A stretch of 64,000 nucleotides of DNA. It comes from Parapedobacter tibetensis. Its GTDB lineage: Bacteria; Bacteroidota; Bacteroidia; Sphingobacteriales; Sphingobacteriaceae. The notes beneath the pieces are model-generated. The model was not told the origin of the DNA. It made no database searches and was given only the letters and a program-made list of their open reading frames with translations. Of the stretch, positions 1-64,000 are shown piece after piece; position 1 is the first letter of the stretch; each line of letters begins with the position of its first letter. The stretch spans positions 62,001-126,000 of the forward strand of contig NZ_JAMXBE010000001.1 of the NCBI RefSeq assembly GCF_024704835.1, in the 5' to 3' direction. The position numbers were made by a program, and so were the translations under genes.

Positions 1-3000
1 TGCATAGTGAATATTTATGGCCGAAACGCTGGCAAGCAGTGCATTGAACTCAATCCTCAAGCTATCAAAGGCCACGCCCGGTGCGAAATGGAGTTCGGCG
101 GGATTTCCGCCTTCAGCCGGATGTAACTCAAACACTGTATTATCATTATTATACTGTCTTACCTGTGTGTTTCCATCATATAACGTAAATGTAAGCCCTG
201 TAAGTAAGCTTGCGTCCGTTAGTGGAACACCTGCGCTTATTCCAATCCGAAGGACATCGTGCGTAGCGGAAGTTGCTGCAAAGCCCAGTGCTTGGTATAC
301 TCCGCCCAGCAGCCCTGGACTCACTTGCAGTTCTGAATACGTATCTTTATCGGCATCAATGGCCAGTGGAGCATCTACAACGGTACAGCCCAGGCATGCC
401 ACACCAGCAGTACCTGCGAACTGTGTTTCGGCCCACCCGCAGGGCAACGGTACCACTACTGTAATCGTAAAGGATGCCTCGTATGTTCCTCCATTATTAT
501 CGGTGGTCCGGATGCGCACGCTCTTCGGCCCTGTGGACAATGACGACGGATTGGTTGCCCGCAGCGTTGAACTATCGATGTTAAAGCTGCCGTTGTCGTT
601 ATCCCCATCTCCGACTACCAAGGTATAGGTATGCGTATCGCCCGCATCGGCATCGGTGGAGGTGAGTGTGCCCACAACCGCGTTGGCACCCGCGCTTTGG
701 TTTACGGAGCTGTTGCTGAGATCGATATCGGTGGGCGCATTGTTTACAGCGGTGATCATGAATCTGACCGTAGCTGTATCGCAAAGTGAAGGTGTACCGT
801 TGTCGCAAACCTGATAGATCAGGCTGTCAAGACCGCTGTAATTGGCATTTGGTGTATACGTAAAGCTACCATCCGCATTCAATACCACGGTTCCGTTAAC
901 GGGTGCGATAACGAGGGATGCCGTCAGTGCGTCTCCTTCCGCGTCTGAGTCGTTCGTCAAGACATTGCCGGATGTGGGTATATCTTCCTCAACCGCGACC
1001 TCGTCATCCACAGCGGTCGGCCGTGCATTCACCTCCCCCTGAAACTCATACGCTCCCATGTCAATCACTCCATCACCTGTGAAATTATACACTCGCGGGT
1101 TGCCGGCGAGGTCTAAGTCGTTCGCCAGGTCTCCGCCCGCATCGGTATACGCCTGGTTGCCGCCCACACTGATGGCGGGGCTATTTGCTGACAACGAATA
1201 ATCGCCGTTTGCAGGATCGGCGAATAGCGGATTATCGTGCAAGACCGCCGTGGTATTAAAAACGGTACCTTCATTACTGGAGATATCGTTATCGCCATCC
1301 GCATATAGGCTATGCGAGAGGCTGAGGTGATTCCCAACGATAGTAAGGTTAAACAGCTGATTACCAGCTCCATCAGCCGTATTCGCCCAGATGATGGTGT
1401 TTGTCAGGTTAGCCGTGTGGGCCCCGAGATTCGCTATCCCCCCGCCTCTGCCTGCTGCGTTATGGGAAATGGTACCGTTGGTTATGGTTAATATTCCTTC
1501 ATAATTTTCGATCCCACCAGCTATAAGACTTGCTGCATTTTTGGAAACTACCGCGTTTATTAACGTAAGCATATGAAAACTCGTTATCCCCCCGCCCCGC
1601 GATGCTTGATTATGGGTAATCACACCATTGGCTATTGTGATGTCGCTATTCAGTTCACTAAACAGACCACCACCGTAGCCCATCACAGAATTATTTGCAA
1701 TGACGATATGGCTAAGCAAAGTTGACGTCCCAAGGAAGTACATTCCGCCACCGTGTGCCCTCGTGACGCCTATCCCGTTTACGTTTAATCGGCCAGTGCC
1801 GTTCGCATTCCCGCCGGTCACCGTAAACCCATCCACGAGCGCACTGCCCACATCACTGACACTGACGATCAGGTGATGGGCGTTTTCTAGGTGATTATCG
1901 AAATTATCCGTATTGTCATTACCTGCAAAATCACCACTCAGGATGCTGCCCACTTGGGGGTCGTTGTTATCAGGCAGGATACGCGCATCATCCAGCGCTT
2001 CGATTCCGGCAGTTGGGTCAAACCCACCATACAGTTGTACATCGGGAACCAGCACAAAGCTGTTATCCCGACCGCCATCAGTGGTATATTGCCCGTCAGC
2101 CGCACTGTATAACGGTAGGTAAGTACCTACAGCCACGAAGACGCGCAGGGGTTCGGCTTCCGTCCAGCCGGGGCTGTCGCCATCGTGCTGCTCGCGCGCC
2201 CATTTCAGCGCATCAGCCAGCTCGGGAACAGCGTTCGCCCAGCTATCGCCTGCGCCAGTATAACCACCGGCCGTGGTATTGACGTTGATGTCTACGTAGA
2301 GGACGTTATTGGCATCAGGAATGAGGTCTCCGTCGCAATCTGCAGCTTGCGTATCGCCCGAGATCGTCCAGCCATGATCGTCGATCAGCGACTGCCGCTC
2401 ACTGGCAGCGGCACAGTATTCCAGGCCGTCTGCGCCGAGGGTTACGTCGTTCTGCAGCGCCTGCCCGGCCCAACCAATCAAGGTGGCGTCGTAGTTTTCC
2501 GGGGAGAGGCCGGAATTACTTAACATTTCGAACATATCGGTCACGTTGGAAACATCCCAATTACCCAAATTCACATTAAAGGCAGGGGTATTAAAAAACA
2601 TTCTTTGCATAATCGTAACCTTTGCTACGTTCCACCCGCTAAGGTCCTGACTGAACTCCACTGCGTTACGAAACATACTATTCATGTTGGTCACATTTCC
2701 CACCAGCCAGCTGCTGATATCCTGATTGAATGCATAGGCGTTGACAAACAGGCCATCCATATTGGTCACATTTGAGACAATCCAACTACCTATATCCTGA
2801 TTAAAGCTGTTTGCACTGGTAAACATCCCGGACATATTCGTTACGCCGGATATATCCCAGCTGCCGATGTTCCCGTTGAACATGCTGGCACCCTGGAACA
2901 TCCAGGCCAGGCTGGTGACCCCGCTCAGATCCGGTGTGTCTGTTGCATTGCCCATGAGGTTAGAGGCGCCATTGAATGCTCCCTCCATAGAGCTCCACGC

Positions 3001-4452
3001 AATATCTCCCCATTGCTCAATGGAAAGGATTTTCTGGCGGTCTCCGCCACCATTGAAGAAGATGCGGGGGAAGTCGCCGGTGATTTCAACGGTGTAGGTT
3101 CCGGGTGCGGCATAGGTGTGGGTGAGCCCCTCCGGGGTGTCTCCATCCTGCCAGGTGGTCTGGTTTCCATCCCCCCAGGCAATGCTGAAGTTGTACCCAC
3201 CGTCCTGGTGAATGGGGATGGTGATCTGGTTGTCTTCCGAGTCGCCGGGATTGTCGGTTTTCCAGGTGGTGATGAAATTGGTGGGGTCGCCGGGGATGAT
3301 ATCGGGGCTGGTACTGCTATTCCTCAGCAACGTGATATTATCATTGGATATATTATGTACTACGACGATGTCACGCCGGCTGTCATTATTAAAGTCATCC
3401 ATCGCAAGCGATACCGGCGTGCCATCCAGGCCGACTGTAAATTGATCGGCAAAGGTACCATCCCCATTGTTCAGCAGGATAGACAACGTCCTTCCGTTGA
3501 CATTAACGATGGCGAGGTCTGGCTTGTCATCATCGTTTAAATCGCCGATGATCACCGAATCAGTGTTTTCTCCTGCATCGTATAGTTCGTGGGGAAGAAA
3601 CGTACCATCGCCCTTGTTCAACAATATCGATACGTTGCCGGAATTTCTGTTGACAACAACCAGATCAGCTGCATCGTCGTCATTTAAATCTCCGATTGCT
3701 ACACAACGAGCATAATTGCCGGTAGGGTACGACACCTGTGCAGCAAACGTGCCGTCGCCCTGGTTCAAGAGCACTGAAACGCTATTCGCCCCCCCATTTG
3801 ACGCGGCCAAATCTGCATAGCCGTCGCCGTCCAAATCGCCAATGGCCAACTGCGTACCTCCGGCTACGGGGTAGGTAACAGGTGCCACAAATGTACCATC
3901 GCCATTATTCAGTAATACAGCGACACTTTCACCAAAATTTGACGTCGCAATGTCAAGCGCACCGTCATGATCGAAGTCGCCGATAACGATCCCCGACAGA
4001 CCAGACCCAACACCATAATAGGCTGCCTCCGAAAATGTGCCATCGCCTTCATTCAATAAGATCGCCAGGGAGTTGGTGGCACTCCCCAAAATCACCGCCA
4101 AATCGAGATGTCCATCTTGGTTCAAATCGCCCACGGCAACAGCAGCTGGCGGATCATCGAAGGAATAAATAGCAGGCGGTTCAAAATCACCATTCCCATC
4201 ATTCAACAATATCGCCACATTGTAGGGCGACGGAAAGGTTGATAACCAATCATTATTGACGACCACGATATCCGCATGACCATCGTCATTGACGTCTGCT
4301 GTCGTGACAAACCAAGCCAGTCCGTCTGAATGGTCTTTGGATTCGATAAAGTCAATTTGCGCCGAAGCCGTAGTGCCCGACAGGAAAAAGAATAACAAAG
4401 TTGTCCAAAGGCAAACCAGCCTAACGGGCAGACGTGGTAGAGATCTTTCCAT
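1..4452 (-). CDS. Giant mosaic surface protein (FG-GAP, BspA-like, beta-helix, cadherin-like); 3' end outside window
   Basis: The reading frame is open from ATG at 4452 to the window edge, 1484 codons, with the C terminus missing. A signal peptide ends near residue 32 (hydrophobic LFFFLSG core, then TASAQ). Residues about 45-375 hold seven calcium-type FG-GAP/VCBS motifs such as [10 protein letters not shown] and [10 protein letters not shown]. About 390-460 is a short beta domain with WGDGNQTTW. About 465-650 are BspA-like DUF285 repeats (MFxxAxxFNQDIxSW, VxNVTNM). About 705-1135 look like a right-handed beta-helix with [22 protein letters not shown] and repeated GGGI. About 1140-1235 is a tandem-95/cadherin-like domain and 1236-1330 another cadherin-like domain. 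Family knowledge says such proteins are secreted and adhesive; a C-terminal type IX secretion signal would lie beyond the window. Substrate and partner are unknown. Confidence 0.88.
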
Positions 4453-4526
4453 AGCGCTACAAAGTGACGATAAATCAACCAGAAATAATACCCCTCTTTT
4501 GGGGGGTCTCGGGGTGTTCCAAAAAG

Positions 4527-5114
4527 AGGACTGTAAATCTCCGGTTTAGGATCGGTTTTCGGAAAATACCGAATGCTTTTTTCGGAAAACCGATCCTCTT
4601 TTGCCGGGAGAGAATTGGTTTTCGGGGATTACCGATTAGTTTCTGTGGATTTCCGATTGGCGCCGTTGGATTTCCGATTCATTGATGGAAATTTCCGATT
4701 GGTATAAGGCAAAAGAGCATTTACAATGGTGAAGGGAGAATTGGTTTTCGGGGATAACCAATTGGAAAACGTTGCGAACGGGTTGACGAGCGTAAAAAAC
4801 CAATTCGCTTTTGCGCTGTGCCGATTGGAAACCGCGGAAAACCGATTGTAATCCACCGCGGACCGGTCGTATTTTTGCGAAAACCGTTCGGTATGTTGCG
4901 CCTGGGGATTGGTTTTTGCAGAAAGGCAATTGGCTTGGCGATCGGACGAATTGCTTTTTATAAAAGAGCAATTCACAAGAGGCAAAAGGCAACTGTAAAA
5001 TCCAGAAAAGCAGTTGTGAACTGGAGCATTCCGATTGTAAAATCCTAACAACCAATCGGCATTCCCTAAGTTACCATTGGTTTGCGGGAATTTCCGAATC
5101 TCATCTCCCGTAAC
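4527..5114. repeat. Phase-locked 21-bp tandem array, about 28 diverged units
   Basis: Counting from 4527 in steps of 21, a core like CCGATTGG recurs in register. Examples are 4590, 4632, 4653, 4674, 4695, 4758, 4800, 4821, 4842, 4926, 4968, 5031 and 5052. Positions 4-6 of the unit read ATT in about 17 of 28 units, followed by a G/T-rich middle and an A-rich end. No insertion or deletion breaks the register, although hardly any two units are identical. Because 21 is seven codons, several frames stay open and give heptad-like peptides (for example minus 4629-5207), which I treat as by-products. The array fills most of the gap between the surface protein and higBA. Confidence 0.85.
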
Positions 5115-5194
5115 CGTTCCTTTTTTTGGGGGGGTATTGTGCTGCGACAAAGGCGGAGGTGACTGTTGATTTTTGTAGTGAAAAGAAAAAATAG

Positions 5195-5230
5195 TTGTTT
5201 TTTTCATTCAACAAGTGTAAATTTACACTT
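5195..5230 (+). promoter_or_regulatory. higBA promoter with 18-bp palindromic operator
   Basis: AAGTGTAAATTTACACTT at 5213-5230 is a perfect 18-bp palindrome ending 11 bases before the higB start. A possible Bacteroidota promoter, TTG at 5195-5197, 20-bp spacer, TAAATTTA at 5218-5225, has its -7 element inside the palindrome. Binding of HigA here would block transcription, the usual autoregulation of higBA. Palindrome seen; binding inferred. Confidence 0.6.
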
Positions 5231-5241
5231 TACAATAAGGC

Positions 5242-5526
5242 ATGATTAAAAGTTTTAAGCATAAAGGGCTTAAATTGCTATGGGAAGACGGCAAAACAAA
5301 CAAGCTGCCAGCAGAGCAGGTTGCCCGTATCGAACGAATGCTTGAGACCATCGACAGTGCATCAGCGGTGCCAGAAGATTTTGGAGCGTTCCCGAATTGG
5401 AACATCCATAAGCTATCGGGCGACCTGAAAGACTTTTGGAGCGTGAAAGTAAACAAGAATTACCGCATCATTTTCCGCTTTGACGGGCAACATGCATACG
5501 ATGTGGATTATATAGACTATCATTAA
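5242..5526 (+). CDS. higB: HigB-type RelE-superfamily toxin
   Basis: A 94-residue protein of the HigB/RelE-like host-killing family (PF05015 type). Recognisable parts are the N-terminal SFKHKGLKLLWEDG, the central NIHKLSGDLKDFWSVKVNKNYRI and the C-terminal FRFDGQHAYDVDYIDYH. Family members are ribosome-dependent mRNA endonucleases; the basic residues of KVNKNYRIIFRF match the region that forms the active site. The toxin gene comes first and the antitoxin gene 12 bases later, the order typical of higBA. Length is normal for the family. The promoter and palindromic operator lie directly upstream. Confidence 0.88.
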   Translation: MIKSFKHKGLKLLWEDGKTNKLPAEQVARIERMLETIDSASAVPEDFGAFPNWNIHKLSGDLKDFWSVKVNKNYRIIFRFDGQHAYDVDYIDYH

Positions 5527-5538: not shown

Positions 5539-5841
5539 ATGAAACGGAAAATGCGACCCATCCATCCGGGCGAAATCTTGCGGGAGGAAATCGTAAATGC
5601 TTATGACCTGAAAACAGGTGAAGCGGCTAAAATGTTGGGTATTTCACGGCAGATGCTTAATAACATTATCCACGAGAAATCCGACATCACGCCTGATATG
5701 GCATTTCGGATTGCACAGGTATTTGGCGGTACAGCTGAAATCTGGGCGAACATGCAAACCAAATACAATCTGCATCTCGCAGCCGAACGCGCCAAATTGT
5801 TCAAGCTAAAGCCATATCACGGGCAATTGCAAACCGTTTAA
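5539..5841 (+). CDS. higA: HigA-type antitoxin, XRE-family DNA-binding protein
   Basis: A 100-residue protein opening with the HigA signature RPIHPGEILREEIV. The helix-turn-helix is at about residues 29-50 (KTGEAAKMLGISRQMLNNIIHEK), followed by the conserved ITPDMAFRIAQVFGGTAEIWANMQTKYNLHLA. HigA neutralises HigB and represses the operon by binding a palindrome, here probably 5213-5230. The GGAGGG site upstream supports this start; an internal Met at residue 5 is an alternative. It converges on the response-regulator gene with a 21-base gap. Confidence 0.9.
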   Translation: MKRKMRPIHPGEILREEIVNAYDLKTGEAAKMLGISRQMLNNIIHEKSDITPDMAFRIAQVFGGTAEIWANMQTKYNLHLAAERAKLFKLKPYHGQLQTV

Positions 5842-5862: not shown

Positions 5863-6483
5863 CTACTTATACTTCCTACTGATCAGCGCATGGCGACTAT
5901 TGACCTGTAGCTTCTCGTAGATGTTCTTGATGTGGTATTTGACGGTTTCCAGCGAAATATCCAGGCGGATGGCGACTTCCTTATTGGTCAGCCCTTCCTC
6001 GATGGCTTCCACCACCTGGGCTTCCCGGGGGGTCAGTTTTTCCTGAAGGTCTTCGGTGTGTTTAGGATTGAAGTACTCCACAACTTTGCGGGCAATGCCG
6101 GGCGACATGGGTGCACCGCCTTCATGGAGTGACACCACCGCTTCTTTGACCTTCTGCAACGGGGTCTGCTTGAGCAGGTACCCCGATGCACCGTTGCAAA
6201 GCGCCTGGAACACCCGATTGGCATCGTCGTACACGGTGAGCATGATTACCTGACACTTCGGTGCATGTTTCTTGATACGCTGCACGCCCTTGATGCCCGA
6301 CTCGCCGGGGAGGCCGATGTCTGAGAGCACAATATCCAGCGTGATATCGTCTTTCCATTGCTCGAAAAACGACTCTACCGAATGTGCGGACAGTAGACAG
6401 GAAACCCCGGTTTGGTCTTTAAAAAAATTAACCAGCATGGCCCTAATCTGTTCATCGTCCTCTATTATGCCCAAACGTATCAT
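5863..6483 (-). CDS. NarL/LuxR-type response regulator
   Basis: A 206-residue two-component response regulator. The receiver domain spans about 1-120 with acidic pocket EDD (8-10), phospho-acceptor Asp55 in LSDIGLPG, and the Lys of YLLKQTP. The LuxR-type HTH is at about 140-200 (LTPREAQVVEAIEEGLTNKEVAIRLDISLETVKYHI). I chose the ATG at 6483 (MIRLGIIEDDE), as usual for the family; an in-frame start at 6507 would add eight residues. It lies 72 bases downstream of the sensor kinase gene on the same strand, so the two form a cognate pair, probably controlling a nearby glycan-use locus such as the GH92 gene (inference). Confidence 0.9.
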   Translation of the reverse strand: MIRLGIIEDDEQIRAMLVNFFKDQTGVSCLLSAHSVESFFEQWKDDITLDIVLSDIGLPGESGIKGVQRIKKHAPKCQVIMLTVYDDANRVFQALCNGASGYLLKQTPLQKVKEAVVSLHEGGAPMSPGIARKVVEYFNPKHTEDLQEKLTPREAQVVEAIEEGLTNKEVAIRLDISLETVKYHIKNIYEKLQVNSRHALISRKYK

Positions 6484-6555
6484 GGTGTAAAGGTAGGTAT
6501 TGCCCACGAAATCGCATATCCCCCTTTTGGGGAGTACGGTATTTCTGCCGGGAAA

Positions 6556-55945: not shown

Positions 55946-56013
55946 TTTCACGCAAAGCTCGCTAAGACGCCTACGCTCTTGCCAAGTACGCCAAGGCTTT
56001 TCTTCCTGACTTT
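55946..56013. repeat. Dispersed repeat A, copy 2
   Basis: TTTCACGCAAAGCTCGC, AAGTACGCCAAG and TTTTCTTCCTGACTTT in the same order and spacing as 15804-15870, about 40 kb away. Confidence 0.75.
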
Positions 56014-56047
56014 CGAACTTCCCAACTTCCGGACTTTCAGACTTTCC
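56000..56047. repeat. 8-bp array, six units, abutting the hisIE stop
   Basis: TTCTTCCT, GACTTTCG, AACTTCCC, AACTTCCG, GACTTTCA, GACTTTCC in exact 8-bp steps, ending on the base next to the hisIE stop codon. It overlaps the end of dispersed repeat A. Confidence 0.75.
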
Positions 56048-56632
56048 CTACTGATGCCTATTCTCCAAATTTTTGGCGATGGCTTCCAATGGGATATTTT
56101 TCTCTCTCAACAACACCAATAAATGGAACAAGAGGTCGGATACCTCGTCGACAAAGCCCGAATCTTTTTCGGTCAATGCAGCAATTACGGTCTCAACGGC
56201 TTCCTCACCTACTTTTTGGGCGATTTTATTTAATCCACGTTCGTGCAATCTGTTTACATAAGAATCCACCGTAGGAAATTGGTAACGATTGTTAATGATG
56301 TTGACTAATTCAAAGATAAAATTCTGATTGTAGTCCGTATTGAAACAACTTCTGGTTCCCGTATGGCATGTCGGCCCTTTAGGCAATGCCTTGATCAATA
56401 TCGTATCATGGTCGCAATCGATATGTGTGCTTATGACGTCAAGGAAATGGCCGCTCTCCTCGCCCTTTGTCCACAGTCGGTTTTTACTCCGCGAGAAAAA
56501 GGTGACGCGTTGTTCTTCTTGGGTCTTCTGCCAAGCCTCTTCATTCATATGACCCAGCATCAATACTTCCAAGGTCTGGGCATGCTGTATGATGGCTGGG
56601 ATAAGGCCACCGCATTTTTCAAAATCCAACAT
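56048..56632 (-). CDS. hisIE: Bifunctional phosphoribosyl-AMP cyclohydrolase / phosphoribosyl-ATP pyrophosphatase
   Basis: A 194-residue fusion. HisI, about 1-105: EVLMLGHMNEEAWQKTQ, FFSRSKNRLWTKGEESGHFLDV, and metal-binding HIDCDHDTILIKALPKGPTCHTGTRSCF. HisE, about 110-194: SYVNRLHERGLNKIAQKVGEEAVETVIAAL and DEVSDLLFHLLVLLREKNIPLE. The two domains catalyse steps 3 and 2 of histidine synthesis. Last his gene of the minus-strand series, separated from hisF by an 8-bp array. Confidence 0.96.
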   Translation of the reverse strand: MLDFEKCGGLIPAIIQHAQTLEVLMLGHMNEEAWQKTQEEQRVTFFSRSKNRLWTKGEESGHFLDVISTHIDCDHDTILIKALPKGPTCHTGTRSCFNTDYNQNFIFELVNIINNRYQFPTVDSYVNRLHERGLNKIAQKVGEEAVETVIAALTEKDSGFVDEVSDLLFHLLVLLREKNIPLEAIAKNLENRHQ

Positions 56633-56649
56633 TTTTGCTTGTTCTTTTA

Positions 56650-56753
56650 TTTGCCGATTCGTTTATTTGCCGATTTGCTTATTCGTCTATTTGCTTTGTA
56701 CATCTTTACGAATCAGCGAATTCGCGCATTGGCGAATCAATACATCAGCTAAT
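56650..56753. repeat. 8-bp array, 13 units, with orientation switch, abutting the hisF stop
   Basis: From 56650, TTTGCCGA, TTCGTTTA, TTTGCCGA, TTTGCTTA, TTCGTCTA, TTTGCTTT follow in 8-bp steps. After GTACATCT the units read as the reverse complement type: TTACGAAT, CAGCGAAT, TCGCGCAT, TGGCGAAT, CAATACAT, CAGCTAAT. The array ends exactly at the hisF stop codon and fills nearly all of the hisF-hisIE gap. Confidence 0.8.
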
Positions 56754-58913: not shown

Positions 58914-58961
58914 GTTCTTGCATTTCTAATTTCGTGTCTCGCACTTCTAATCTCGTACCTC
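58914..58961. repeat. 7-bp array, about seven units, abutting the hisB stop
   Basis: GTTCTTG, CATTTCT, AATTTCG, TGTCTCG, CACTTCT, AATCTCG, TACCTCT in exact 7-bp steps; the last unit touches the hisB stop codon (58962-58964). Weaker 8-bp words (CTTTCGGC, AATCGGCC, CTCAGCCT) fill the rest of the gap to hisH. Confidence 0.7.
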
Positions 58962-63623: not shown

Positions 63624-63693
63624 TCAATAATCTAAAATCGTCAATCTAAAATCGTAAATCGTCAATCTAAAATCGTAAATCGTAAATCTAAAA
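63624..63693. repeat. 7-bp array, ten units, abutting the phoH stop
   Basis: TCAATAA, TCTAAAA, TCGTCAA, TCTAAAA, TCGTAAA, TCGTCAA, TCTAAAA, TCGTAAA, TCGTAAA, TCTAAAA in exact 7-bp steps, ending on the base next to the phoH stop codon at 63694-63696. Confidence 0.85.
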
Positions 63694-64000
63694 TCAAATG
63701 TCCCCATAAGCTTCCAATATCCGTCTGACTAGCTTATGCCGCACCACATCACCTCCATCGAGGTAAATGATATCTATTCCTTCGATATTTTCCAACAGCT
63801 TGAGCGCTGTATTCAGGCCCGACTGTTGTTTTTTTGGTAAATCTATTTGTGTAACATCGCCGGTAACGATAAATTTTGCCGTAGGACCCATGCGTGTCAA
63901 AAACATTTTCAATTGCATGTCGGTGGCATTTTGTGCCTCATCCAAGATGACAAAACAGTTATCGAGCGTTCGTCCCCGCATAAAGGCAAGGGGGGCCACT
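63694..64000 (-). CDS. phoH: PhoH-like ATPase, C-terminal part (5' end outside window)
   Basis: The last 101 residues of a PhoH-family P-loop NTPase: [62 protein letters not shown]. The Walker B-like FVILDEAQN is seen; Walker A lies beyond the edge. PhoH proteins are linked to RNA metabolism and phosphate stress, with unclear exact role. The codon at 63999-63997 is GTG but encodes an internal Val. Same strand as purC and the his genes. Confidence 0.93.

Follow-up and report, generated by a model that had tools for sequence, protein, structure and literature searches.

A diverged 21-bp repeat array without a linked gene belongs to a widespread class of non-coding arrays lying just upstream of an FnIII-gene family in Bacteroidia

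The iterons of plasmid origins are tandem sites about 22 bp apart that lie upstream of a gene and are bound on one face of the helix, while in partition centromeres of the parC/ParR type helically phased repeats precede a small gene and are bound cooperatively in a filament. REP and BIME elements are short palindromic repeats that are interspersed in intergenic regions and form dispersed families. In the open-access literature of PMC, the nearest match to the arrays reported here was only the TAACTGA heptamer repeats. These direct repeats of a fixed 7-bp sequence, arranged head to tail, are intergenic and lie upstream of genes in Beggiatoaceae, Cyanobacteria and five Bacteroidetes, with long sets in some of the Bacteroidetes (PMC4679880). 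The array analyzed here is located in a 64,000-nucleotide stretch, the window (G000:C1:62001-126000), of the source genome G000 (5.98 Mb, 85 contigs). It represents, as an orphan, a widespread non-coding array class that in Bacteroidia is found just upstream of a family of genes encoding proteins with fibronectin type III (FnIII) domains, and this class is apparently so far undescribed.

As the preliminary description proposed, the window array (Table 1) consists of 28 units with a 21-bp period. Compared with mononucleotide shuffles, the autocorrelation of 4527-5114 has maxima at 21 (z = 12.2), 42 (z = 10.5), 63 (z = 9.0) and 84 (z = 9.9), with weak shoulders at 20 and 22, and cutting at 21-bp intervals from 4527 keeps the core CCRATTG in a single register to 5114. 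In the whole window, positions with an identity of at least 0.42 number 597 for k = 21 and 457 for k = 42, the next being 130 for k = 16, and no second comparable region was found when periods 5-60 were scanned. The units had been described as drifted, with few identical; all 28 are in fact distinct, without a single identical pair, and it is because of this strong divergence that Tandem Repeats Finder reports two copies only. The plus-strand consensus of the units is CCGATTGgtaTttGcnGAaaa, in which information is concentrated in CCGATTG, the first seven positions. One or two inner units and the first unit (4527-4547) fit the consensus poorly, and owing to the latter the clear array spans approximately 4548-5114. 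The core CCRA/TTGG is dyad-symmetric, with the dyad between A and T (e.g., between 4635 and 4636), and the unit is more palindromic than column-permuted profiles (p = 0.0005). Elsewhere in the window, a shorter intergenic array of simple heptamers with a 7/14/21-bp beat (AAATCGTCAATCTAAAATCGTAAATCGT) is found at 63629-63695, and small imperfect repeats of 16-24 bp lie between histidine-biosynthesis genes at 56002-56052, 56642-56694 and 58916-58956.

Table 1. Coordinates of the features discussed, counted from the first base of the window.
Feature	Position	Strand	Basis
FG-GAP/VCBS-like secreted protein gene, 2650 aa, first 4452 bases	1..4452 (G000:C1:58500-66452)	-	Translation
End block of the window array	4526..4675	-	78% over 150 bp to C5:126486-126635
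Array of 28 diverged 21-bp units	4527..5114	.	Autocorrelation and unit table
Long imperfect inverted repeat AGGATCGGTTTTC...GAAAACCGATCCT, from two adjoining units	4548..4594	.	Sequence, opposite-strand self-match, stem in RNA folds
Open frame (192 aa) running through the array, judged a non-gene	4629..5207	-	No family match, no codon-position bias
HigB-like toxin gene	5242..5526	+	Pfam PF05015, E = 4e-20
HigA-like antitoxin gene (HTH)	5539..5841	+	Pfam HTH_3
Response regulator gene	5863..6507	-	Conserved in genus

The array starts 75 bp from the start of the FG-GAP gene, which was not found in eight other genomes of the genus and whose product has a C-terminus resembling gliding/T9SS sorting domains. 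On the other side, five other genomes of the genus retain the response regulator gene at 85-90%; the only close HigA homologue within the genus is that of G028, which is not one of these five. In the relatives, neither the HigA nor the FG-GAP gene was found beside the response regulator gene. As judged from these gene neighborhoods, the stretch comprising the array, higBA and the FG-GAP gene is lineage-specific and bounded by the conserved response regulator gene, and the suggestion that the array is linked to higBA or keeps its place next to it therefore finds no support. We define the class by a tandem array longer than 150 bp that repeats every 20-22 bp, a dyad-symmetric unit and a helical-FnIII gene 100-500 bp downstream. 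The window array has a period of 21 bp and a dyad-symmetric unit, and no homologue or remnant of the helical-FnIII gene was found near it, even at E = 10, so that it is an orphan.

A DNA search of G000 identified two alignable relatives of the window array, in contigs C5 and C34. The C5 match is the gene-proximal end of an array that precedes the FnIII gene at G000:C5:126688, and the aligned block stops 53 bp before this 206-aa gene (L002:1703-2323). A wider window block, 4541-4745, is 71% alike to C34:498771-498975, with the matching end read on the minus strand; the C34 copy has the same context as that of C5, with the gene cut after its first codons. The window array thus belongs to a three-copy set whose members differ in the gene, which is present at C5, a stump at C34 and absent from the window. 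It is descended from, or sister to, the array that precedes the C5 gene, and its present place, between the FG-GAP gene and higBA, is an isolated one. Because it has neither the gene nor a conserved place, the window copy is probably a relic or a free-standing copy. Many other G000 arrays are also orphans, several of which are homologous to gene-linked arrays. When segments were counted by period (10-45) in 1.96 Mb of G000, 22 were found at 21 and 20 at 42, with 8 or fewer at any other period. One recent pair of G000 paralogs has an array at C45:150957 and none at C13, and hence gain or loss of the array is separable from the gene. At G000:C45:257958-259193, a gene of the family has a 21-bp array downstream rather than upstream. 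Four further arrays (C1:618896-619407, C34:81745-82426, C56:9979-10624 and C45:138392-138635) form a single dispersed G000 family, 80-91% alike and with sharp common ends, and some copies adjoin Rhs-type or toxin-immunity-like genes. An exact pattern match inside an NRPS gene was judged to be due to chance. With the C5 array as DNA query, only chance matches at AT-rich gene starts were obtained in relatives, and consequently the gene product was used as query instead.

The linked gene encodes a protein of about 205 aa with a helical N-terminus and an FnIII C-terminus. The C-terminal half is assigned as an FnIII domain from Pfam fn3 matches in 6 of 15 homologues (best E = 1e-5) and from a structural match to FnIII with Z = 14.4 and an rmsd of 1.7 over 89 residues. 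The N-terminal half is predicted to be a helical bundle, for which Foldseek with this domain alone found no significant match (best E = 1.3). Beyond fn3 the gene has no Pfam model, PADLOC and NCBIfam gave no meaningful match, and the phage-tail matches in PHROG are most simply caused by the FnIII domain and were discarded. Among 395 Bacteroidia genomes, a profile built from 15 members found homologues in 91, many of which have multiple copies. The members with a named source belong to Parapedobacter soli and to many species of Sphingobacterium. No DNA-binding fold was recognized in the gene product, nor was any regulator gene found to go with the arrays.

Of 69 loci, 51 have an array within 1.2 kb upstream of the gene; on the downstream side an array was found at 8 of 68, and the periods there are mixed. 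The best upstream period is 21 or 42 in 47 of the 51 loci, 20 in two and 22 in two, and one further locus has a period of 14; the 17 loci (of 69) without an upstream array include two that start at contig ends and so cannot be judged. Array scores reach 291, compared with a maximum of 13.4 for shuffled sequences. The arrays contain about 7 to 50 tandem sites and end at a median of 236 bp, typically 100-480 bp, upstream of the gene. In G300, a closed genome from another family, an array with a score of 121-178 lies directly upstream of each of the four genes sampled, and nothing scores above 37 in 320 kb of other sequence. Four Sphingobacterium orthologs (L079, L080, L082 and L085) have no detectable array while close relatives have one; the first three of these, together with the C13 paralog, indicate that the array is dispensable. 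At L035:1248-1385, at L028:1313-1399 and in the C45 and C13 copies of G000, an additional array lies between the main one and the gene; its period of about 10 bp (TTTGTACCGTTCTGTACCG; TTCCCGCCAA) corresponds to one helical turn instead of two. Near-perfect arrays also occur near the gene copies L074, where the array is downstream of the gene (period 40), and L075:488 (periods 17/34). The leaders contain TAnnTTTG boxes, clear mainly in one Sphingobacterium clade, and all exact ones are located between array and gene, at -36 to -53 relative to the start codon. TAnnTTTG is a likely promoter box, upstream of which the arrays would lie.

These distributions bear on whether the arrays could be platforms for recombination or dispersal, either as sites of a recombinase- or transposase-like protein or as homology blocks by which cassettes, such as FnIII and Rhs immunity genes, move. 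Such a role would suit the sharp-ended array families scattered in G000 and the occurrence of paralogs both with and without an array. No recombinase is generally found beside the arrays, however, none of the arrays was found in plasmid and viral collections, and in the sampled part of G300 the arrays are upstream of genes only, and we regard this role as rather unlikely.

The unit sequences are unrelated between loci (e.g., GCTCATGAGC, TACATGTA, AAATGATATCATTT, AAACGCTAGCGTTT and CCCTTTAAAGGG), while their symmetry recurs: the unit is palindromic (p < 0.05) in 47 of 65 arrays, with a median p of 0.006. When 30 independent arrays were aligned on the even dyad, the dyad itself was enriched in A/T (p = 0.002), and further out the arrays have G/C at 2-3 bp and then A/T at 6-8 bp in common. 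Information content is higher in the core than in the spacer (p = 0.036). Palindromicity is lowest in the least diverged, i.e., freshest, arrays (rho = -0.31, p = 0.024), a trend that fits an age-related loss of all but the symmetric core, although other readings are possible. Where the proteins are less than 70% identical, the similarity of array consensus sequences tracks that identity (Mantel p = 0.002). It persists down to 55-66% protein identity, and a GCT/AGC-like core is common to L033, which is of the Parapedobacter type, to L083, L084 and L092 of Sphingobacterium and to L097. Array consensus and gene have thus descended jointly. Locus-specific sequences that nevertheless have period, symmetry and the A/T-G/C-A/T pattern in common could be shape elements, in which phased flexible or bent DNA serves a general nucleoid protein that does not recognize specific sequence, and the 10-bp sub-arrays near some genes agree with such a function. 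Within a gene clade, however, it is the actual core sequence that is kept, beyond the A/T pattern, and the idea appears improbable to us.

Substitutions were related to distance from the dyad in three aligned array pairs of Sphingobacterium orthologs. They become more frequent with distance: the dyad has 9 of 104 (0.09 per site) and the farthest positions have 13 of 50 (~0.25 per site), with z = 3.2 and p = 0.0013 for the trend and p = 0.016 for core versus spacer. The earlier proposal that the missing indels in the window array reflect selection holds only in part. The register is indeed kept, but indels are also few in the leader between array and gene and in array-free leaders of the Sphingobacterium ortholog pairs, and scarcity of indels was accordingly dropped as proof of selection. 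The other half of that proposal, selection for a two-turn spacing as in cooperative binding, is better supported by the periods, the dyad symmetry and the slow evolution of the dyad.

The preliminary description had offered a heptad-repeat peptide, with seven codons per unit, as an alternative. Open frames of 192-197 aa do run through the window and C5 arrays, but periods of 20 and 22 bp also exist, L025 has stops in all six frames and the window frame matches no family. Substitutions are also uniform over codon positions. In seven pairs they number, for example, 10/5/46 in the gene, as expected of coding sequence, and 36/30/35 or similar in the array-bearing upstream stretch; they number 64/46/47 in the C5/C34 pair, in which a 197-aa frame is open, and 25/27/27 between the window array and its C5 paralog, so that the synonymous bias looked for in the minus frame 4629-5207 is absent. 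The periods and codon positions refute peptide coding as a general explanation, and it can hardly be right at all. The arrays could also act as RNA, i.e., as rows of 21-nt hairpins in transcribed leaders, with a role in protein binding or in translational control. The window array does fold better than shuffled sequence on either strand (z = -2.6 and -5.4), as would be expected from symmetric units anyway. The arms do not covary, those of one unit pairing no better with each other than with arms from elsewhere in the array (6 of 90 tests with p < 0.05), and G-T pairs are as frequent as A-C pairs in the arms, which indicates no strand preference. Moreover, the likely promoter is downstream of the array, and no Rfam family reached the threshold, the Rfam matches being due to chance. 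A role as RNA is therefore very improbable.

The main rival explanation is a functionless minisatellite process, in which slippage or rolling creates arrays of about 21 bp near these genes, and the arrays then travel with the gene while decaying. It explains the near-perfect fresh arrays, such as that of L072 with a unit identity of 0.97, the gain or loss of whole units, as in the single 21-bp gap between L002 and L003, and the lack of arrays at some orthologs and paralogs. It leaves unexplained why arrays of unrelated sequence are confined to 20-22 bp, why dyad symmetry is so common and substitution lower at the dyad, and why consensus sequences remain alike between distant proteins. We consider it unlikely, though with a real chance of being correct.

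Given the 20-22/42-bp periods at unrelated sequences, the symmetric cores and the slowest evolution at the dyad, we propose, at about even chances, that the arrays are tandem, dyad-symmetric candidate protein-binding sites spaced two helical turns apart upstream of a promoter. A homodimeric DNA-binding protein would sit on every site, always on one face of the helix, and may polymerize along the array, and the bound array would control the downstream promoter by silencing or bending. Several observations speak against this proposal: the gene product has no recognized DNA-binding fold, no regulator gene was seen beside the arrays as a rule, the freshest arrays are the least symmetric, some orthologs and one paralog do without an array, and many arrays in G000 are orphans. 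The binder could be specific to an array or a single protein that reads DNA shape; that is, specific recognition by a factor co-evolving with the gene and shape recognition by a general protein are both possible. An extension of the first, which we think unlikely, is a private DNA code for each array-gene pair, in which the gene product or a co-evolving factor would recognize its own array. Paralogous copies within one genome would then be insulated from each other, and the arrays would form a large, address-labeled regulatory family with free letters but a fixed two-turn beat and mirror symmetry.

If the binding-site proposal is correct, a gene family in about one quarter of the sampled Bacteroidia genomes would have this array element at most of its copies. 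The class escapes similarity searches because only period and symmetry are conserved, the sequence differing at nearly every locus. The arrays would provide many natural replicates for the co-evolution of protein-DNA specificity across paralogs and a first lead on a multi-copy gene family without a Pfam model beyond fn3, and they would allow helical phasing to be tested directly where operator-like sites form long arrays.

Compared with known systems, the likeness to iterons lies in the tandem spacing, here 20-22 bp, and in the place upstream of a gene. Unlike iterons, the arrays consist of about 7-50 strongly diverged, mostly palindromic units at chromosomal multi-copy loci, with a sequence specific to each locus, and no replication initiator gene is present: the window array has FG-GAP, HigB and HigA genes as neighbors, and the linked arrays precede the helical-FnIII gene. 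Helical phasing and an upstream place are shared with parC/ParR-type centromeres, but partition genes are absent and the linked product is instead a helical and FnIII protein. The TAACTGA repeats differ in having a fixed heptamer, whereas the arrays described here have a period of about 21 bp, are free in sequence, dyad-symmetric and tied to one gene family, the window consensus not being TAACTGA. Like REP and BIME elements, the arrays are palindromic and intergenic, but they have no common sequence, keep a strict two-turn tandem period and are linked to a gene.
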